Positions 4,037 to 15,211 of a DNA stretch of 64,000 nucleotides are shown here, in pieces. Each line of letters begins with the position of its first letter. Positions within the stretch are counted from its first letter, which is position 1. A program made the translations under genes and the position numbers. The notes under the pieces were generated by a model. That model was not told where the DNA came from, made no database searches, and saw only the letters and a program-made list of their open reading frames with translations. The stretch is from Clostridiales bacterium. Lineage in GTDB: Bacteria > Bacillota > Clostridia > Saccharofermentanales > Saccharofermentanaceae. The stretch is taken from NCBI GenBank assembly GCA_017428155.1, contig JAFRRJ010000040.1:1-64000 (forward strand), written 5' to 3'.

Positions 4037-5650
4037 ATGAAGCACACATTCGAAAAGATCAAGCTCGATCAGGAAAAGAAGACCAGAGAAAAAAAGAAGA
4101 AGCGCGCATGGAGAACTTTCGGAGGCTTTCTGCTCCTTATCCATGCCGCCGGTTCAGGATATGCATTCTACAATGCTTACAGACTCGGCATGCTCCCGGG
4201 CAAACTCCTTTTTATGTTAGCCGGTCTCCTCCTAATAGTATTCTTTATCAATTATCTTCTCTTCTTTGCAGGCTCCAAACCCGGCGGTGCCAGAATATTC
4301 CGCCGCTTTATCGCAATCGTACTTGCGCTGTCGATCGGGGCCGGATGCTTTTACAGCGGAAACATCATAAAAGAGATCAATTCCACTGTCGATCAAATAA
4401 CTGCAACTGACAAAGAATCAGTTGCCGCAACGATGAATGTTTATGTCGTTACCAAAGACAGGGCCGTAAGCCTTTCAGACTGCAAAAACTATACGTTCGG
4501 TGTTGTCGGGGGCAATGACGGTGCTGCTTCATTTGCAGCCGTCTCCAAGGTAAAGAGCGAGCTCGGATCTGATATAAAAGACAAGGCTTTTGATTCCATA
4601 TCCCTGGTTGCCGATGAACTCATAAACAAGGGCAATATAGGTGCGGCCATTATCGATCAGAACTATGTTGAGATCCTGAAAGAGACCGACCGGTTCTCTG
4701 ATTTTGAAGACAAGGCAAAGAAAATTGCAACTATCAGCATTACTCCTGAAGAACTGAACCGGGCGGCATCATCCGACCCTTATAAGACCGGGCCTGTCGA
4801 TAAGCCCGTTGATCTGGAACCTGCCACAGGCAAGGTAAACAAGATCGATATCGAACCTTTTATTGTCTATATCAGTGGATCTGACACAAGGGATAAGATG
4901 TTCCAGGTCTCAAGAAGCGATGTGAATATTCTCATGGTGGTAAATCCCCAGACCAAGCAGATCCTGCTGCTTAATACGCCGAGAGACTACTATATCCCCA
5001 ACCCGAGATCGAGCTACGGTACCAAGGATAAGCTGACACACTTAGGCATCTACGGTGTCGACTGCTCCATAACCGGTCTTGAGACACTCTACGGCTGCGA
5101 CATAAATTACTACGTCCAGATCAACTTCACCGGTACAGAGACCCTGATAGATGATATCGGCGGCGTAACAATAGACAATCCTCAGGGTTTCAGCGCAAGA
5201 GGCTATACCTTCCCTTCGGGCGAGATCACTCTCAACGGTCCCCAGGCCGTAGTCTACGCACGCGAGCGTTATGCCTTCACTACCGGTGACAATATGCGCG
5301 GCCAGAATCAGATGAGGCTTATCACCGCGATCATCAAGAAGCTCACATCTCCTTCAGCGGAATATATAATCAAATACAAGGCGATCCTTACGGATCTTCA
5401 GGGGTTCCTGGTTACCAACATGGAATCTGATGAGATCGACGCCCTTGTTAAGATGCAGCTTAACGATCTTGCCTCATGGAATGTTAAGTCCTATGCGGTA
5501 ACCGGAACAGGCGGCTCTGATGTCACCTACTCGATGCCCGGCCAGAATCTCTATGTCACATATCCTGACCAGAGTTCCGTTAACAGAGGTGCCGCGCTGG
5601 TAGACAAAGTCCTTACCGGCGGAACCCTGACTGATGAGGACGTGGGCTGA
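4037..5650 (+). CDS. LytR-CpsA-Psr (LCP) family wall-polymer ligase
   Basis: 537 residues. A lysine-rich cytosolic start is followed by three hydrophobic segments within the first ~115 residues, then a linker, then the LCP catalytic domain in the second half: RSDVNILMVVNP, ILLLNTPRDYYI with the conserved Arg-Asp pair, KLTHLGIYG, the DDIGGVTIDNPQGF element and YARERYAFTTGDNMRGQNQ, whose arginines bind the lipid pyrophosphate in known LCP proteins. The family transfers teichoic acids, capsules or secondary wall polymers from undecaprenyl pyrophosphate to peptidoglycan, on the outer face of the membrane. The ATG has an AGGGATAA-type ribosome binding site and lies 26 bases after the previous membrane-protein gene. 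A terminator hairpin follows at 5811-5841. Family assignment is firm; the polymer is unknown. Confidence 0.93.
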   Translation: MKHTFEKIKLDQEKKTREKKKKRAWRTFGGFLLLIHAAGSGYAFYNAYRLGMLPGKLLFMLAGLLLIVFFINYLLFFAGSKPGGARIFRRFIAIVLALSIGAGCFYSGNIIKEINSTVDQITATDKESVAATMNVYVVTKDRAVSLSDCKNYTFGVVGGNDGAASFAAVSKVKSELGSDIKDKAFDSISLVADELINKGNIGAAIIDQNYVEILKETDRFSDFEDKAKKIATISITPEELNRAASSDPYKTGPVDKPVDLEPATGKVNKIDIEPFIVYISGSDTRDKMFQVSRSDVNILMVVNPQTKQILLLNTPRDYYIPNPRSSYGTKDKLTHLGIYGVDCSITGLETLYGCDINYYVQINFTGTETLIDDIGGVTIDNPQGFSARGYTFPSGEITLNGPQAVVYARERYAFTTGDNMRGQNQMRLITAIIKKLTSPSAEYIIKYKAILTDLQGFLVTNMESDEIDALVKMQLNDLASWNVKSYAVTGTGGSDVTYSMPGQNLYVTYPDQSSVNRGAALVDKVLTGGTLTDEDVG

Positions 5651-5804
5651 GCGGAAGACAGCGTAAAAACCGGACCGGGGTTTGCTGCCTAAAGGTCATA
5701 TTTTCGGGGGCGGGTGCAGAATTCAGACACACCGGTGTTACAAAACGTGTCCAAATATGTATCTTTGCAAATCGCGCTTTGTGATTCCCGGGAAATGCCT
5801 AAAT

Positions 5805-5850
5805 AAAAAACTGCCGCCCGGGCTTATTTCTCCGGCGGCAGTATGTTTTT
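5805..5850. terminator. Bidirectional terminator between LCP and CBS genes
   Basis: CTGCCGCC (5811-5818) pairs perfectly with GGCGGCAG (5834-5841). An A-run precedes it and GTTTTT follows it on the + strand, so it can end transcripts from both sides. The hairpin overlaps the last codons and stop of the CBS gene. Confidence 0.8.
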
Positions 5851-6258
5851 CTCGTAATAATGCTTGATGATCGACCTTCTTGTAACGATCCCTATGAACA
5901 TTCCCCTGTCATCCGTGATCGGTACGAAGTTTGAATCCATGGTCTTGTTGATCAGTTCCTCAACAGACTGTGTTATCAGGACCGGCCTGTACTTATACTT
6001 GTTGAGGTTTACGTCTGAGAGCTTGAACTGCTTTAAGCTCTCGATTGCCATTGTGTGGGGCTCTCCGCCCTCACCCTTTACGATGAACCACAGAAGATCA
6101 CCTTCGCTTACCGTTCCGACATAGTGTCCTTCCCTGTCGATGACAGGAACTGCCGCATAAGAGGTGCTGTGCATCTTCTCTAATGCCTGATCAACCGTAA
6201 TGTCGTTATAAAGATATGTAATCTCCTGCTTGGGTCTGGTGAAAAAAGCTATATTCAT
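5824..6258 (-). CDS. Tandem CBS-domain protein
   Basis: A 144-residue protein made of two CBS motifs (about residues 15-65 and 80-140), with typical elements such as AAVPVIDREGHYVGTVSEGDLL and VPITDDRGMFIGIVTRRSII. CBS pairs bind adenosine nucleotides or S-adenosylmethionine and usually regulate another protein or act as small stand-alone sensors. Its ATG overlaps the stop of the upstream esterase-like gene in a TAATG arrangement, so translation is likely coupled. No effector domain is attached. The ligand and partner cannot be told from the sequence. Confidence 0.88.
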   Translation of the reverse strand: MNIAFFTRPKQEITYLYNDITVDQALEKMHSTSYAAVPVIDREGHYVGTVSEGDLLWFIVKGEGGEPHTMAIESLKQFKLSDVNLNKYKYRPVLITQSVEELINKTMDSNFVPITDDRGMFIGIVTRRSIIKHYYEKNILPPEK

Positions 6259-7956: not shown

Positions 7957-8292
7957 TTAGCTGAAGAATCTTGAACAGAATACAATGGCCTGTGCAGCAT
8001 CTCCGTTGACCGTGATGCTTCCCTGTGCAATGGCGACAGTAAAGTCTTTCTGTCCGCTTAAGACAGCTGCAAATGTCTCAGCATCAGCATCGATATAAAA
8101 AGGCGCGTTGATGTATTCGTAAGGGGCGACCTCCGCAATGCCGTCTTCGATCTTCACATATAACGGAAGGTTGTCGAGATTGCCGTTTAGCGTAATCTGC
8201 GTAGCCGTATCCTGAAGGAATGAAGCTTTGGACGCTCTTTCCCTTACTGCCTTGAAGATACTTCCGAATTCAGGTTCGATTTTCTTCTGCAT
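7957..8292 (-). CDS. SCP2 sterol-carrier-like domain protein
   Basis: 111 residues with the single-domain SCP2 fold signature: a hydrophobic beta core (ITLNGNLDNLPLYVKIEDG), then the DADAETFAAVLSGQKDFTVAIAQGSITVNGD block that matches the family's motif before the final helix. SCP2 domains bind lipids or other hydrophobic ligands, here in the cytosol. The start has a GAGGTGATC ribosome binding site in the 19-base gap after the SDR gene, so both are probably one transcript. The lipid handled is unknown. Confidence 0.85.
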   Translation of the reverse strand: MQKKIEPEFGSIFKAVRERASKASFLQDTATQITLNGNLDNLPLYVKIEDGIAEVAPYEYINAPFYIDADAETFAAVLSGQKDFTVAIAQGSITVNGDAAQAIVFCSRFFS

Positions 8293-8311
8293 TTAGATCA
8301 CCTCTTTTTTA

Positions 8312-9121
8312 TCAGTCTTTTACAGCCTTGCTTTCAAAAGCCAGTATCCAGGATACGGGAACGATCTTTGAAGCAAGATGCAGTAATTTTTGTGAGAATG
8401 GATATACGAACATCTTCTTTCCCTTAACAGATGCCTTAAGAGATTTGACGGACAGCTTAACAGGATCGATAACGAAGTTCTTGCGCCAGTCGTTAAAATC
8501 CGTCTCCTTGCCATCTGTGGCTCTTCTCTGGAAATCCGTCGCGACCGGACCTGGGCATACAGCCATGACATCTATGCCATATGGCTTAAGCTCAATGCTC
8601 ATTGCCCTCGAGAAAGATATGACATATGCCTTACTTGCAGCATAGCAGGCAAAGCCGGGCTGGGGCAGAAAACCTGCCGACGAAGCTATATTGATTATCT
8701 TAGAGTGCGCACTGCCGTTTTGCTTCATATATGGTGCTGTGATCCTGATAAGACAGCTTAATGCGCTGCAGTTGATGCTGACAGTATCGTCCAGCGCTTT
8801 GGCGGGCTTATCCATAAAACGTCCCTTAACACCCATTCCGGCAGAGTTAATGAGAAGACCCACCTTGGGTTCTTCTGCCTTTAACTTATCTTCTATTATC
8901 TTTATTCCTGAATCATCGGAAAGATCCGCAACAACAGGGATTATCCTTACGCTGTCCAGTGACGATGCGATCTCATCAAGTGCTTCTGCGCGCCTTGCCA
9001 CCGCCCATATCTCATCAAATGGTGTCTTGAAATATTCACCGTTATCACGCGCCAAAAGCTCAATAAAAGACTTTCCTATGCCTGACGAAGCGCCTGTAAT
9101 TATCGCAATTCTCTGGTACAC
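8312..9121 (-). CDS. Short-chain dehydrogenase/reductase (SDR)
   Basis: 269 residues with the classical SDR motifs: TGASSGIG at the N-terminus for the dinucleotide, an NSAG element (LLINSAGMG), the catalytic Ser in NIASSAG, and YAASKAYV with the Tyr and Lys of YxxxK. PGPVATDF follows as in the family. The start is a GTG (encoding MYQRIAI) with GGGGAGAAG upstream; no ATG fits better. It belongs to the DltE/YqjQ-like ketoreductase branch by general appearance, probably acting on a fatty or acyl substrate given the SCP2 gene next door, but the substrate is inference. Confidence 0.92.
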   Translation of the reverse strand: MYQRIAIITGASSGIGKSFIELLARDNGEYFKTPFDEIWAVARRAEALDEIASSLDSVRIIPVVADLSDDSGIKIIEDKLKAEEPKVGLLINSAGMGVKGRFMDKPAKALDDTVSINCSALSCLIRITAPYMKQNGSAHSKIINIASSAGFLPQPGFACYAASKAYVISFSRAMSIELKPYGIDVMAVCPGPVATDFQRRATDGKETDFNDWRKNFVIDPVKLSVKSLKASVKGKKMFVYPFSQKLLHLASKIVPVSWILAFESKAVKD

Positions 9122-9179: not shown

Positions 9180-10253
9180 TTAAAAGAGAATGTCTTTAAA
9201 GCATACCCTCTGCTTATTGTTATCGTAGTCAAAGCAGTGTCTCGATCCGCCGGCACACCACTTCTCCCATTCGCATTCCTGACACTCTTTGCAAAGTGAG
9301 GACAAAGGTTTTCTGAATTCGGCAAACCGGTTGAACCATACATCGCTGAACTTGTCCTTATAGATATTGCCCTGAACGAACTCAGGCCTTTCTTCTATAT
9401 CAAGGCATGCGGTGATATCACCGTTGACTCTGATCGCGGCAGTATGTGTTCCCGCTCCGCAATAGAAAAACCAGTCTCTAACCTCGCGCTCATATTCAAG
9501 TCCGAGGAAATGCGAACAGCCGTAATTGACCGGGATCCCCTGCTCTCTCTTTTCGCGGATAAAATTAAAAAGATATCTCTGATCATCAGGAGTTAATAGC
9601 ATATCAGGGAAATCCAGGGCTCTTCCCATAGGCTCGATTCCGATAACACGCCAGGAATCGATATCCATCTCATCCAGGATCTCATACAGTTCATCGAGTT
9701 CGCTGATATTCTTATGGTTAACAACTGTTGTTACCTGAATATGTCTGAAAGCCTTTCTCGCGATAAGGTTCTCGATTCCGCGCATAGCCTTATCGTATCC
9801 GCCCTTCATGCCTCTTTGACTGTCGTGAGTATCGCGAAGACCGTCTATGCTTACGGATACAGTTCCCATACGTGTATCTTCCAGCATCTTTGCAACATCC
9901 TCTGTTATAAGGGTCGCATTTGTGGTCATGCCCCAGTGAAAACCCAGATCGACGGCATAGCCCAGAAGTTCGGCGAAGTCGGGATAAAGAAGCGGTTCTC
10001 CGCCGGTGATGCAGAGCTGTACCTTTTTCAGGTCGAAGTTCTCCTTAACATCTCTTAATACGGCTTTGAAAGCTTCCTTATCAGGCCCGTGCCCGAGTCC
10101 CGGTGCACAAGAAGAACCGCAATGGAAACACTTCTCATTGCAGCTCCTTGTCAACTCGAAAAAAAGGTAGATCAGATTGGGCTTCTTAAAAAGCTCCGCT
10201 CTCATTTCAGCCTTCCTGTTGAGATACGGTATCTTGGCTTCGTTCAGATCCAC
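9180..10253 (-). CDS. Radical SAM/SPASM-domain maturase-like enzyme
   Basis: 357 residues. The radical SAM cluster motif is C38-x3-C42-x2-C45 inside TRSCNEKCFHCGSSC, followed by the GGEPLLYPDF element and a TIM-barrel-type region. The last ~100 residues are a SPASM domain rich in cysteines (YCGAGTHTAAIRVNGDI..C, then CKECQECEWEKWC and a last Cys near the C-terminus), which binds extra Fe-S clusters. Enzymes of this build install cross-links or other changes in ribosomally made peptides, oxidise sulfatases, or act on haem-like molecules. The gene starts 5 bases after the VYGPP-repeat protein, the obvious candidate substrate. No PqqD-like (RRE) domain is visible in the window. Confidence 0.92.
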   Translation of the reverse strand: MDLNEAKIPYLNRKAEMRAELFKKPNLIYLFFELTRSCNEKCFHCGSSCAPGLGHGPDKEAFKAVLRDVKENFDLKKVQLCITGGEPLLYPDFAELLGYAVDLGFHWGMTTNATLITEDVAKMLEDTRMGTVSVSIDGLRDTHDSQRGMKGGYDKAMRGIENLIARKAFRHIQVTTVVNHKNISELDELYEILDEMDIDSWRVIGIEPMGRALDFPDMLLTPDDQRYLFNFIREKREQGIPVNYGCSHFLGLEYEREVRDWFFYCGAGTHTAAIRVNGDITACLDIEERPEFVQGNIYKDKFSDVWFNRFAEFRKPLSSLCKECQECEWEKWCAGGSRHCFDYDNNKQRVCFKDILF

Positions 10254-10258
10254 CGTGA

Positions 10259-10597
10259 TCAGTCTCCAAAATCAGCCGGAGGTCCGTATACAAGCTGTTC
10301 GTGATCTTCTTCGATCTCATCATCCACCGGAGGACCGTATACATCTTCCTCAGGTCCGTCAACAACATCCGGTGCAGGTCCGTATACACAGACTTCATCA
10401 GTAGCTTCAGGCTTTGAAATAGGCTTATCGATATCATTGCTCTCCAGCGTCTGCTCTGAAGCGGTAGGATCCGGCGGAGGTCCGTATACATTAGTCTCCG
10501 GCGGAGGTCCGTATACACAGCCTTCAACAGCCATGCTCAATGCGCCTATACTTGCTGCTATTGCAGTAAACGTCAGCGGTTTCTTTGATCTTTTCAT
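10259..10597 (-). CDS. Small secreted/lipoprotein-like protein with five VYGP(P/A) motifs, candidate radical SAM substrate
   Basis: 112 residues. An N-terminal signal (KRSKK then a hydrophobic run to residue ~24) ends at VEGC27, a poor lipobox (Glu at -2) but with Cys in the right place. The rest is acidic, Pro-rich and carries VYGPPP at 28-33 and 37-42, VYGPAP at 71-76, VYGPP at 86-90 and 103-107; the first and third are preceded by Cys (C27, C70). At DNA level an 11-base unit (GGTCCGTATAC, once GGACCGTATAC) recurs at 10281, 10332, 10377, 10478 and 10506. The ATG has an AAGGGGG ribosome binding site and lies 19 bases after the giant surface-protein gene; the radical SAM gene follows 5 bases later. 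Repeats plus leader plus adjacent SPASM maturase suggest a ribosomally made, modified surface peptide. This is inference from context. Confidence 0.8.
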   Translation of the reverse strand: MKRSKKPLTFTAIAASIGALSMAVEGCVYGPPPETNVYGPPPDPTASEQTLESNDIDKPISKPEATDEVCVYGPAPDVVDGPEEDVYGPPVDDEIEEDHEQLVYGPPADFGD

Positions 10598-10616: not shown

Positions 10617-13600
10617 TTAGGAAATATCTTCTTTGTCTTCTTCGTTAACGGAGGAGACATCTGTATTAGGTTCGCTTGATGTGATCGGCTTGAAGCCCTT
10701 AAGCGGTCTTGAAGCCGTGGGAGCAGCCTTGGAATTCGGATCCATGATAGACGGTCTCTGGCCCTCTAATGCCGAACCCATAGCCGGAGCAGCGGATTTT
10801 CGTATATCGCGCTCTTCATCAACAATAGCCGAGGGTCTTACGATTCCGCCGTATGCGGAAGAATGCTCGTCCTGTGATGCCTGTTCCCTGTCGGTCTGAG
10901 CTCTCTTGAAGAACGCAGACTTATGAGTTTTTGCGCTGTCAGCGATGCTTGTGTAAGAAGACTTGGACTTCTCTTCTGCAAGTCTCTTTGCCTCTTCTTC
11001 CTCAAGACGCTTCTGCTCTTCACGCATCCTTGCTTCCTTTGCTTCATCGCTTTCCTTGAAAGCAGATACGTTCATGCCCGGAGCTGCCCATACAGGTGCT
11101 CTTCCTGAACCGTTATAACTCTTACCGGCAAGCAGGCTTCCCAGCTGGTTGGAGTTGGATGAAGCCTTTGCACGCTCCTTTGATATAGAAGGTCCGCTGA
11201 CGGAAGACGAAGCAGCTGCTCCGACACCGGAAGAAGAACCGCTCCTGAATGAACTCAGAGGATTCGTATTCTTTCTGACAGCTTCACCCTTAACCTGATC
11301 TTCAGAAGGCTTGACGCCGATGTTATATCCTTCTGCAGAAGCAATTGCGGAAATGCCCGGGAGAACCTTGTTCTCATTGGACATCATTGCAGACTTGAAT
11401 ACTTCGGATGTCTTGCTCTGCTGCTTTGCCATGGCTGCCTTTGCTTCTCTCGCCGCATCTGCAGCTTCGATTGCCTTCTGTGCTTCAGCGAGCTTTGCCT
11501 CGGCTTCTGCTTTGGCAACAGCTGCCTGTCTTGCAGCTTCTTCCGCCTTTGCAGCTTCAGCCTGGCGTTCGAGCTCTAAAGCTCTTGCTTCTTCCTTAAG
11601 TCTCTCAGCTTCCTGAGCCTGTCTTGCAGCTTCTATCTTCTTAGCCTCTTCGGCTGCCTTGCGTGCCTCTTCTGCCTTCCTGGCTTCCTCAGCCAGTCTG
11701 GCTTCCTCCGCTTTCTTTGCAGCTTCCCGGGCTTTTCTTGCCTCTTCGGCTCTTAATTCAGCCTCTGCCTTGGCAAGAGCTGCGGCCTTTGCAGCTTCAA
11801 CTGCTCTCCTGGCTTCTTCCTGTCTTGCGCGCTCAGCGGCCTCAGCAGCTTCCTTAGCCTTACGTGCTTCTTCGGCTCTTCTTGCTTCTTCTGCCTGCTC
11901 TGCGGCCTTACGTGCCTCTTCGGCCTTTCTTGCTTCTTCAACTGCCCTTGCAGCTTCCTGCATTCTCTTTGCTTCGGCAGCCTTCGCCTCAGCCTCTGCC
12001 TGAAGTAGAGCCGCAGCCTTTGCTGCCTCTTCAGCCTTCCTTGCCTCTTCAAGTCTTGCGCGCTCGGCAGCTTCTGCTGCCTCCTTGGCTAAGCGTGCTT
12101 CTTCAGCTTTTCTGGCCTCTTCAGCCTTACGGGCTTCCTCTGCCTTTCTTGCTTCAGCATTTCTTCTGATCTCTTCAACTCTTGCAGCCTGTGCAGCCCT
12201 CTTCTCTTCAAGGATCTTGAGAGCCTTCTCGCGCTCAGCCTTCTGCTCGGGAGTAAGTTCGTTCTTCGGACGTCTGATAGGTCCGGACTGTACAGGAGTC
12301 TTCTGCTCTACAGGCGTCTCTTCCTTCTTTTCAGACTCTTCCTTGACAACCGCAGGCTTGAATACCGAGCTGAATATGCCTGCACCTGCAGCCGGGGCAG
12401 TGCCTGCCGCACTCACGGACTTGGTGAATGCAAGACTTGCGGGATTCCTTGGAGTATCCTTCTGTTCAATACTCTTTACAACCTTGACATCAGGCTTAGC
12501 CTTCTCCTGCTGTGCAGCCTGAACCTTGCGCACAGACTGGAACGGTGATGATGATACACCGGATGCCGTGATCGGCTTCTTGGGCGTCAGTGTTGCCTCA
12601 GGCATATAGACCTTGCCTGCAAATCTTGAATTCATAGCAGGTTCGGAAGTTCCTTCTGCCGGAGCAGCCTTCTGTTCAGCAGGCTGTGCCTGTACAGGTG
12701 CAGGCTTGAACGGTGAAGGCACTGCATTGCCGTCAGTCTTGGTCTCAGCCTTGAACGGTGATGCGGTATTCTCCTCGTTCTTCTTTTCCGGAACGAAAGG
12801 TGATGCAGCTGCCGCTGTTGTTCCTGCAGCAGCAATCTTCTCAGCCTCAGTATTCTTTGCAGGTGCGGCCTTTGATCCGGGCATAAATACCTTGCCTGCG
12901 AAAATCGACTTCTTCTCGTTCTGCGTTTCAGGGACGATCTTCTTTGCCTCAGGCTGAACCTTCTGTTCTTCAGGCTGTACGGGAGCAGGCTTGAAAGGAG
13001 ATGTTGCAGGGGCAGAAGATGTATTTCCTCCTGAAGCGACATTCTTGTTGAATGCCATGCTTGCAGGACTCTTTGATTCATCGAGTTTATCAACGCTTCC
13101 TGCAGCTGCGATTGCAGCCATATCAGGAATGATCTTCTTTACTTCAGGCTTTGCTTCAGTCTGTGCAGTCTTTGCAGCCGTCTGCGCCTTCGCGGATGCA
13201 GGCTTGAAAGACTTGGTGATAATGCCCTTTGATTCAGCAGAAGCAGTGCTCTTGCTTGTAGTGGTCTTGAACGTCTTCGTTCCGGCAGGTTTGCCCTCAG
13301 AAGGCTTGGTAACGGCCGGTTTATCGGTTGATGCGCTTACATTGGTCTTCGCCGGAACATTCTTCTGTGAATTAACCGGAGTCTTTGCGGAAACATTCTT
13401 TTGCGCGTTGACTGAAGGCTTAGCGGCAGGCTTGGCATTTGATGTTACAGAAGGCTTAGCTTCCGGACGGGAAGATCCTGCTGCCTTACTGTCAGCAACT
13501 GCCTTTGCATGGTTAACGGAAAGCTCGGGCGGACGCTTGACCGGTGCCTTGGCCGCTGTGGAAGAAGATGTGTTTGCTTTGGAAGCAGCATTCTTTTCCG

Positions 13601-15119
13601 CAGCTTCCATTGCCTTAAGCTCCTTCATCGCAGTAGCTGTATTAAAGCTCCTGGATGATTTGTTATCAACTACCGGCTGCATCTGCTTAACAGGTCCGAG
13701 ATAACCGAACTTCTCGGCAATTACGGGAACACCCGGAATAAACGCGATAACAAGATCCATGCCTTCAAGTTTTCTCTTGTCATGAAGATATCTGTATCTG
13801 AGATAAAGGATTCCTATAGCAAGGATGAGCAGAACTATCCACAGCCAGCTCATAACGGAAGCCTTCTTGGGGCCGGTCTTTCCTGTAATGACAAGTCCGG
13901 CAACAACAGGCGTGGGCGTAGGTGTTCCGTCACCATCAACGGTTTCTTCCCCGTCTCCGCCTTCACCGGAAGGCGAAGTTTCCTGTCCGGCCTGACCTGC
14001 TATTGCGCCTCCGATCAGGACTGCACCGGCCTCACCTGTACCATCAGAAGATCCCGTCTCAGTTATAACTTCGCCATTCTCCAAAGTGGTTGTCGTAGCG
14101 TCCGTATTATTAACATCCGTTTCCACGGTTGTCACGTCAGAAGGAACTGTTGTAGGTTTCTTTGTGGGATTAGCGGGTTTACTGGTAGGATCTCCCTGAC
14201 CGTTCGCAGGCGTATTCGTAGGACTTGTACCGTTCTTTGTGGGTACAGGTGTATTTGTATTGGTATTATTCGGCCTTGGCGTGGGCGTAGGCGTATTTGT
14301 ATTAGTATTCCTGGGCTGCTTCGTTGGCGTAGGAGTATTTGTGTTAGTATTCCCGGGCTTTTTCGTTGGTGTAGGTGTATTTGTATTAGTGTTCCTGGGC
14401 TTCTTTGTAGGTGTAGGCGTATTTGTATTAGTGTTCCTGGGCTTCTTTGTAGGTGTAGGCGTGTTTGTATTGGTGTTCCTGGGCTTCTTTGTAGGTGTAG
14501 GCGTGTTTGTATTGGTGTTCCTGGGCTTCTTTGTAGGCGTAGGAGTATTTGTGTTGGTGTTCCTGGGCTTTCTTGTAGGCGTAGGAGTGTTTGTGTTGGT
14601 ATTCCTGGGCTTTCTCGTAGGCGTAGGAGTATTTGTGTTGGTGTTCCTGGGCTTTCTCGTAGGTGTAGGAGTGTTTGTGTTGGTGGGTGTATTGGTGTTT
14701 GTGCTGGTGGGATTGGCCTTGATGACCCTGAAACTTGCGCCGTCAATAGAGGCGGAAGCAATACCGGTTTCATAGTAATAGAGATAGTACGATTTGGAGT
14801 TGGTAGGCGTTAATTCAGCTTTAACCGTATAACTGCTGACCGAGGTAATATTAACACCGCTTCCGCCCGAGACGTCAAAATTGTCTCTGTCTATTGAAAA
14901 AGTAACTTCAACCTTGTCTCCGGAATCCAGACCCCAAATGGTAAAACCGATAATCAGGCTGTCATCATCGCCGGTAGTCTGTGTCCAGTAGTCCCAACCC
15001 GGAGCAGCATTAACTTCTTTAGTCTCAATGGTATTGATCGCAAATGAAAAACCGATTATGAAGCAAAGGAGCAAACATAAAGGCTTAAGCGAGAAGCGTC
15101 CCGAAAAGCGTCCCGACAT
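10617..15119 (-). CDS. Giant single-pass surface protein: secreted beta domain, PT-rich repeat stalk, TM, long Ala/Glu-rich coiled coil
   Basis: The chosen ATG (MSGRFSGRF) has GGAGG eight bases upstream; an upstream in-frame start adds nine residues but lacks such a site. About 1500 residues. A signal peptide (to ~37) is followed by a ~100-residue aromatic beta-rich domain of carbohydrate-binding-module style, about ten 14-residue NTNTNTPTPTKKPR-type repeats (residues ~143-290), a Gly/Thr linker, one TM helix near 422-444 (WLWIVLLILAIGILYL), and ~1050 cytosolic residues. The inside part has recurring short motifs (FAGKVFMP/FAGKVYMP, SPASMAF/NPASLAF, SPFKP) and a ~270-residue Ala/Glu/Lys/Arg coiled coil (~963-1233, KAEEARKAEEAR). 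I know no family for the whole. It could tether an extracellular binding module to a cytosolic scaffold. It has its own promoter at 15182-15211 and likely leads the VYGPP and radical SAM genes. Confidence 0.85.
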   Translation of the reverse strand: MSGRFSGRFSLKPLCLLLCFIIGFSFAINTIETKEVNAAPGWDYWTQTTGDDDSLIIGFTIWGLDSGDKVEVTFSIDRDNFDVSGGSGVNITSVSSYTVKAELTPTNSKSYYLYYYETGIASASIDGASFRVIKANPTSTNTNTPTNTNTPTPTRKPRNTNTNTPTPTRKPRNTNTNTPTPTRKPRNTNTNTPTPTKKPRNTNTNTPTPTKKPRNTNTNTPTPTKKPRNTNTNTPTPTKKPRNTNTNTPTPTKKPGNTNTNTPTPTKQPRNTNTNTPTPTPRPNNTNTNTPVPTKNGTSPTNTPANGQGDPTSKPANPTKKPTTVPSDVTTVETDVNNTDATTTTLENGEVITETGSSDGTGEAGAVLIGGAIAGQAGQETSPSGEGGDGEETVDGDGTPTPTPVVAGLVITGKTGPKKASVMSWLWIVLLILAIGILYLRYRYLHDKRKLEGMDLVIAFIPGVPVIAEKFGYLGPVKQMQPVVDNKSSRSFNTATAMKELKAMEAAEKNAASKANTSSSTAAKAPVKRPPELSVNHAKAVADSKAAGSSRPEAKPSVTSNAKPAAKPSVNAQKNVSAKTPVNSQKNVPAKTNVSASTDKPAVTKPSEGKPAGTKTFKTTTSKSTASAESKGIITKSFKPASAKAQTAAKTAQTEAKPEVKKIIPDMAAIAAAGSVDKLDESKSPASMAFNKNVASGGNTSSAPATSPFKPAPVQPEEQKVQPEAKKIVPETQNEKKSIFAGKVFMPGSKAAPAKNTEAEKIAAAGTTAAAASPFVPEKKNEENTASPFKAETKTDGNAVPSPFKPAPVQAQPAEQKAAPAEGTSEPAMNSRFAGKVYMPEATLTPKKPITASGVSSSPFQSVRKVQAAQQEKAKPDVKVVKSIEQKDTPRNPASLAFTKSVSAAGTAPAAGAGIFSSVFKPAVVKEESEKKEETPVEQKTPVQSGPIRRPKNELTPEQKAEREKALKILEEKRAAQAARVEEIRRNAEARKAEEARKAEEARKAEEARLAKEAAEAAERARLEEARKAEEAAKAAALLQAEAEAKAAEAKRMQEAARAVEEARKAEEARKAAEQAEEARRAEEARKAKEAAEAAERARQEEARRAVEAAKAAALAKAEAELRAEEARKAREAAKKAEEARLAEEARKAEEARKAAEEAKKIEAARQAQEAERLKEEARALELERQAEAAKAEEAARQAAVAKAEAEAKLAEAQKAIEAADAAREAKAAMAKQQSKTSEVFKSAMMSNENKVLPGISAIASAEGYNIGVKPSEDQVKGEAVRKNTNPLSSFRSGSSSGVGAAASSSVSGPSISKERAKASSNSNQLGSLLAGKSYNGSGRAPVWAAPGMNVSAFKESDEAKEARMREEQKRLEEEEAKRLAEEKSKSSYTSIADSAKTHKSAFFKRAQTDREQASQDEHSSAYGGIVRPSAIVDEERDIRKSAAPAMGSALEGQRPSIMDPNSKAAPTASRPLKGFKPITSSEPNTDVSSVNEEDKEDIS
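14260..14690 (-). repeat. Tandem 42-bp coding repeat (about 10 copies)
   Basis: About ten tandem units of 42 bases encode NTNTNTPTPT followed by RKPR (three), KKPR (four), KKPG, KQPR or PRPN. Units differ mostly at third codon positions, which points to selection on the protein rather than very recent slippage. They form the Thr/Pro stalk of the giant surface protein. Confidence 0.9.
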
Positions 15120-15181
15120 TATACTAACCTCCAAAAAAGCACACACAAGACTTCTATATAAGAATATTAGAAGATATTAAG

Positions 15182-15211
15182 ATTATACAGTTGCGTTAAC
15201 TGTATTTTCAA
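15182..15211 (-). promoter_or_regulatory. Promoter of the giant surface-protein gene with a dyad in the spacer
   Basis: On the minus strand TTGAAA (15211-15206) and TATAAT (15187-15182) are 18 bases apart. A perfect dyad, TACAGTT-5-AACTGTA (15186-15204), fills the spacer and touches the -10, where a repressor would block RNA polymerase. It marks a separate transcription start for the giant gene inside the long same-strand block. Confidence 0.7.

Follow-up and report, generated by a model that had tools for sequence, protein, structure and literature searches.

The closest described systems involve proteins with short motifs built around Tyr-Gly. The PlpXY splicease excises tyramine at XYG, naturally MYG and LYG, with a mass change of -135.0757 Da; its tags include GGPIRPLYGLPI, and a PlpA2-derived tag reads PLYGLP (PMC10533398). 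PlpX, an IPR026482 enzyme, acts with the RRE protein PlpY on Nif11- or nitrile-hydratase-type precursors (PMC11002830). The resulting spliceotides inhibit proteases, and a single precursor may hold several such sites (PMC10373908, PMC11117315). In the TIGR04133/TIGR04134 system, the gene of a radical SAM enzyme adjoins a lipoprotein gene whose product carries YGxP just after the lipobox (YGSP, YGMP, YGTP). Our literature search returned no text on YGPP or VYGPP, on TIGR04133, or on dockerin, radical SAM and R. flavefaciens together; the splicease survey of Scott et al. 2022 (Chem 8:2659), which reportedly comprises 939 predicted splicease systems, lay outside that search.

Here we analyze a 64,000-nucleotide stretch of DNA (the window) from a Saccharofermentans-like Clostridiales bacterium of the gut or rumen, in which a protein with repeated VYGPP motifs is encoded next to a radical SAM/SPASM enzyme. 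We conclude that this pair is a real and new multi-site branch, in Bacillota and Actinomycetota, of a poorly known kind of system. It extends the little-studied idea of a radical SAM enzyme with a lipoprotein partner to these phyla, with many target copies per protein, and it suggests a chemical modification of cell-surface proteins of a kind not studied so far.

The VYGPP-repeat protein and its neighbors

The features of the locus are as follows.

10259..10597, minus strand: precursor gene and putative substrate, a predicted exported lipoprotein of 112 aa that has five VYGP(P/A) copies; its homologues adjoin the enzyme
10520..10597, minus strand: signal sequence, residues 1-26, kept across relatives and possibly also the enzyme's recognition leader
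10517..10519, minus strand: lipobox-like Cys27 (VEGC), invariant in the alignment of relatives
10502..10516, minus strand: VYGPP copy 1, residues 28-32
10475..10489, minus strand: VYGPP copy 2, residues 37-41
10373..10387, minus strand: VYGPA copy 3, residues 71-75
10328..10342, minus strand: VYGPP copy 4, residues 86-90
10277..10291, minus strand: VYGPP copy 5, residues 103-107
9180..10253, minus strand: radical SAM/SPASM enzyme gene, 357 aa, GTG start, TIGR04133-like
10119..10142, minus strand: CX3CX2C cluster motif (C38, C42, C45), then the clade-typical GS of HCGS; invariant in the alignment
9201..9461, minus strand: SPASM region with invariant C265, C283, C324, C327, C333 and C351
15182..15211, minus strand: promoter-like TTGAAA-18-TATAAT upstream of the giant ORF; a consensus match, the number of matches in the region being not above chance

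The small ORF (10597-10259, minus strand) translates to MKRSKKPLTFTAIAASIGALSMAVEGCVYGPPPETNVYGPPPDPTASEQTLESNDIDKPISKPEATDEVCVYGPAPDVVDGPEEDVYGPPVDDEIEEDHEQLVYGPPADFGD, its N-terminal stretch reading MKRSKKPLTFTAIAASIGALSMAVEGC and then VYGPPPETNVYGPPP. All that the first-pass annotation had described in it is present: 112 residues, a signal sequence, a Cys at the lipobox position, and five VYGP(P/A) copies, two of them after Cys. These Cys residues directly precede copies 1 and 3, the first being the lipobox-like Cys27. Having both a signal sequence and a lipobox Cys, the precursor would class as a bacterial lipoprotein; the relatives have canonical sites (VSGC, LTGC, AAGC), and the Glu at -2 in the VEGC of the window is unusual.

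Exactly 5 bases (10254-10258) separate the precursor from the enzyme gene, both on the minus strand, and a GGAG lies just ahead of the precursor's stop codon. This gap, together with the Pfam domains found in the window enzyme (Radical_SAM 1.6e-21, SPASM 1.1e-8), bears out the earlier claim of a radical SAM/SPASM gene with CX3CX2C five bases on. The AlphaFold model of the enzyme (pLDDT 92) finds its best PDB matches in SuiB, anSME, CteB and ChlB, with Z of 25-27 over ~310 residues; these share the fold but have different substrates. With about 28 residues ahead of the radical SAM domain, there is no room for an RRE domain.

A giant surface ORF (10617-15146, minus strand), in the same orientation, stops 19 bp short of the small gene, which agrees with the downstream position originally assigned to the pair, and we infer that all three genes are co-transcribed, possibly from the promoter-like site at 15182..15211. 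Its product of 1509 aa comprises NTNTPTPTKKPR tandem repeats, ~1000 aa of Ala/Glu/Lys-rich sequence and one apparent transmembrane segment; it gave no Pfam match, and the ORF is kept upstream of the pair in ~20 close relatives. The same gene run includes a GH5 cellulase (PF00150; 16148-18232, minus strand), seemingly anchored to the cell envelope given its apparent C-terminal transmembrane helix. Directly downstream of the enzyme (7957-9121, minus strand) are an SCP2-like domain protein and a short-chain dehydrogenase (SDR); the downstream SDR, SCP2-like and esterase genes recur in close Saccharofermentans relatives only.

Pairing of enzyme and motif across genomes

Of 70 host-genus genomes, 43 have the enzyme. 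Two or more VYGPP codings on one strand were found in 42 of these 43 genomes and in none of the 27 enzyme-free ones (Fisher p=1.5e-18; close relatives among the genomes are not independent), and the repeat protein lies immediately upstream of the enzyme in all 29 other genus loci retrieved. A scan of a public genome collection yielded 80 enzyme loci from other genomes, belonging to Saccharofermentans, Lachnospiraceae, Ruminococcus, Butyrivibrio, Coriobacteriia (Actinomycetota) and Erysipelotrichaceae, mostly of ruminant or other herbivore origin. A protein with at least two YGP copies is encoded within 6 kb on the same strand, generally at most 70 bp upstream, at 75 of these 80 loci, a count that again includes close relatives and many metagenome assemblies. 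Contig edges truncate two of the five exceptions (L085, L109), a third (L113) encodes a protein with one copy only, and the remaining two (L073, L100) form a small lineage whose sister locus L096 has a repeat protein 5.6 kb off. The search for homologous pairs that had been proposed thus finds them within the genus and beyond it, and no enzyme-free genome of the genus has repeated VYGPP codings. Chance is excluded by the conservation of motif and pair over genera and phyla.

The proteins that carry the motif barely align beyond it and the signal sequence. A tally of the repeats, as had been suggested, gives a Y-G-P core followed mostly by P (97/107, 49/49, 9/11, 52/55 and 112/127 copies in five locus groups). 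The residue before Y is V in 107/107 Saccharofermentans copies and V, L, I, T, M, D or A in Ruminococcus, as would be expected for an XYG target. The partner proteins have 2-7 YGP copies, with variable, mostly acidic spacers between them; a DNA-pattern scan for closely spaced YGPP pairs returned nothing in Ruminococcus because the spacers are longer there. A signal-like N-terminus is present in 89/90 precursors and, by a simple rule, a lipobox-like Cys in 64/90. The two genes travel together, and YGPP is the conserved feature of otherwise unlike secreted proteins. Given this pairing, and carriers that share essentially only motif and signal, the motif is very probably the target of the enzyme, which in turn very probably rewrites each copy.

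The two-gene system recurs in many rumen bacteria, sometimes with the motif on proteins of the cellulosome, the fiber-degrading complex. Dockerin_1 was found in 9/9 larger YGPP proteins tested from R. flavefaciens and relatives, in which the motif would therefore be cellulosome-docked; no such tie to the Ruminococcus flavefaciens cellulosome appeared in the literature searched. In two R. flavefaciens genomes, ~25 further loci of dockerin type were found to lack the repeated motif. An LTAA-type signal marks 29/32 Ruminococcus-locus precursors, in contrast to 0/16 signal-like ORFs at other dockerin loci, and could be a recognition leader or could reflect simple common descent. Some R. flavefaciens-type loci (L099, at 4827-5213 and 5165-5947; L087, L102, L114) have two or three tandem YGPP genes for a single enzyme, with lipoprotein and dockerin forms among the adjacent products. 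The first-pass annotation had suspected a clostridial counterpart of a Bacteroidetes system; the pair is indeed present in Clostridia, but its range extends to Coriobacteriia and Erysipelotrichaceae, and dockerins are found in many of its partners.

Only enzyme and precursor recur; no third gene is conserved with the pair across lineages, and no protease, exporter or RRE gene conserved with it was found. A "conserved gene" cluster from 17 loci was rejected, as it consisted of antisense ORFs of the enzyme itself. The logic of multi-core ribosomal peptides, initially invoked for this locus, is supported for the enzyme-substrate pair and the repeated target motif but not for core release. With these genes missing and the surface protein looking intact, a cut-up multi-core peptide is not indicated; a classical multi-core RiPP would call for a leader protease or exporter gene to free small core peptides, and none accompanies the pair across lineages. 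There was no sign of a phage system, the viral collections giving one close IMG/VR relative and one distant unannotated phage-labelled fragment.

Affinities of the enzyme

Among NCBIfam models the window enzyme scores best with TIGR04133 (259 bits, below the cut-off of 425; two relatives reach 254 and 274), followed by MftC (142). TIGR04103, the nif11-class maturase 3 family, which we take to be IPR026482, scores 113 against a cut-off of 725 bits; in the enzyme tree it is a neighboring clade only. The precursor has no NCBIfam match at E<=1, and TIGR04134 gave chance-level matches in the host genus, none at the locus and none in its own genome. The substrate does contain XYG, as spliceotide precursors do, and the enzyme does adjoin a lipoprotein with YGxP, as in the TIGR04133/TIGR04134 system; given the failed score tests for TIGR04133, TIGR04134 and TIGR04103 and the missing RRE, we file the pair in neither system.

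In a 29-enzyme phylogeny, TIGR04133 forms one clade with the window family (99/97), in which the window family is placed as the sister group of TIGR04133 (Bacteroidota/Treponema). Both group with a TIGR04103/GDL-type set, apart from MftC, NirJ and others (100/98), and forcing them together with MftC was rejected (p-AU 0.009, a post hoc test with few outgroup families). G46, W201 and E255 separate the enzyme clade from outgroups; identity is 25% to a Nostoc TIGR04103 protein and 28% to MftC. Within the family, the clade that includes the host groups as sister to a set from Lachnospiraceae, and another Saccharofermentans set lies near Coriobacteriia, a tree out of step with the organisms that suggests horizontal spread.

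Annotated relatives of the enzyme were drawn from plasmid records. TIGR04133-type enzymes of Parabacteroides, Phocaeicola and Treponema saccharophilum adjoin single-motif lipoproteins with CEYGSP, CEYGTP and CYGMP, so that the suggested kinship with Bacteroidetes YGxP lipoproteins is upheld by both the best-scoring family and the motif of its Bacteroidota partners. Unlike the window family, with its 2-7 YGP copies and its dockerin carriers, the three partners seen there have one copy each. The spirochaete pair (L153, 2749-5041) lies on the T. saccharophilum plasmid pTS1 beside an Mpi-type serine recombinase. On the splicease side, the Nostoc TIGR04103 enzyme adjoins a Nif11 precursor with the C-terminus ALYGLPPELF, and next to a GDL-type enzyme of Azospirillum is a peptide with PYGPA. 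DUF1843 peptides beside GDL-type radical SAM enzymes (L158, 2287-2499; L159, 2153-2866) have PYGPA or PYGAG in some copies, which suggests that enzymes of this clade may generally target XYG.

Phylogeny and motif thus tie the system to a characterized backbone-splicing reaction. Like PlpA/PlpX/PlpY, it combines an XYG target, possibly at several sites, with a related SPASM enzyme, and the PlpA2-derived tag and the Nostoc precursor have P two residues after G (PLYGLP, LYGLPP). However, PlpA has Leu or Val right after Gly where YGPP has Pro, and the window precursor has a signal peptide instead of the Nif11/NHLP leader of spliceotide systems. Its product would be a membrane-anchored or dockerin protein, and neither a PlpY-like RRE partner nor any conserved third gene lies alongside. 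The substrate of mycofactocin MftC (TIGR03962) also has Val-Tyr, but in MftA the VY is C-terminal and the chaperone gene mftB is adjacent, whereas the window motif is internal and continues with GPP; a mycofactocin reading was rejected on the internal motif, the lack of a conserved third gene and the tree.

Proposed reaction and alternatives

The XYGxP-like substrates and the splicease-related neighbors of the enzyme clade favor tyramine excision. We lean slightly toward a splicease-type two-gene system, in which tyramine would be removed at each VYG to leave an exported, anchored protein with several alpha-keto-beta-amino residues. In our judgement the window pair works like the TIGR04133 lipoprotein pair; that its enzyme works like a splicease is close to an even call. 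As co-occurrence and conservation suggest, the enzyme would act on each X-Tyr-Gly-Pro-Pro of the small protein soon after its synthesis, while it is still in the cytoplasm. Tyramine would be excised from Tyr and the chain rejoined, Val becoming a backbone alpha-keto-beta-amino residue, with a mass change of about -135 Da per site (-135.07 Da per YGPP is predicted) at up to five sites in the window protein. The modified protein would then be exported via its signal sequence and anchored by lipidation at Cys27; in Ruminococcus, a dockerin would instead attach it to the cellulosome. Judging from the signal sequences, an acidic and probably flexible stalk would present several electrophilic keto-amides on the outside of the cell. 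There, speculatively, they could block proteases, a known activity of spliceotides, or bind partners covalently.

More broadly, and with somewhat less than even confidence, we propose that bacteria of rumen and gut present, on intact lipoproteins and cellulosome-docked proteins, multiple backbone sites that have been rewritten, whether to keto-amides or to another product. As a general modification of surface proteins, spread horizontally, it would serve fiber attachment, cross-linking or protease defense and not the making of small peptides. If tyramine excision is true, the motif would provide a short genetically encoded tag bearing several reactive keto-amides.

The main rival, unlikely but to be taken seriously, is a cross-link or dehydrogenation at each motif (-2 Da per site), such as a Tyr-Gly-Pro cyclophane or a Tyr-Pro or Val-Tyr C-C or C-O bond. 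SPASM enzymes commonly make cross-links and dehydrogenations, the closest fold is that of the cross-linking enzyme SuiB, and Tyr and Pro are near-invariant neighbors in the motif, Y-G-P fitting the aromatic-X-X spacing of three-residue cyclophanes (triceptides); the 29-enzyme tree contained no cyclophane maturases. However, conservation covers YG as a whole, and the enzyme clades closest to this one have XYGxP-like substrates, one being related to a proven tyramine-excising enzyme. The Tyr or Pro cross-link of 2 Da first suggested for the repeats is thus possible but less well supported, as the relatives point to -135 Da per site.

A wholly new reaction at VYGPP (another oxidation, epimerization or proline modification), with only the target logic in common with TIGR04133, seems rather improbable. 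It is true that these enzymes reach the cut-off of no named family and that Pro-Pro sets their motif apart, but the XYGxP-like motif is shared with the precursors of related enzymes. We consider sactipeptide- or ranthipeptide-like thioethers via the Cys before the motif very improbable: two of the five window copies read CVYGP, and StsB and PapB are distant SPASM matches of the enzyme, but VYG is preceded by C, D, N, T, P, V or A, with most copies lacking Cys, and the first such Cys is that of the lipobox. This reading was rejected because the Cys is not conserved. That the two genes are unrelated neighbors, an ordinary proline-rich surface lipoprotein and a radical SAM enzyme acting on something else, is scarcely credible given their near-perfect co-occurrence over genera and phyla with otherwise unlike carriers.

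A search of the host's own genome for an RRE found a sole PqqD-family protein, on another contig (L149, contig C47, ~26.6 kb) and not at the locus. It adjoins HPr-kinase-like, signal-peptidase-like and ABC-transporter-like ORFs, no radical SAM ORF being seen in the 3-kb stretch around it, and its neighborhood is a separate candidate peptide cluster. At the beginning of the window, an ORF on the plus strand (2-2494) that runs off the contig start encodes a YidC/Oxa1-type insertase domain (PF02096) fused to a sulfatase-superfamily domain (PF00884) in one membrane protein.
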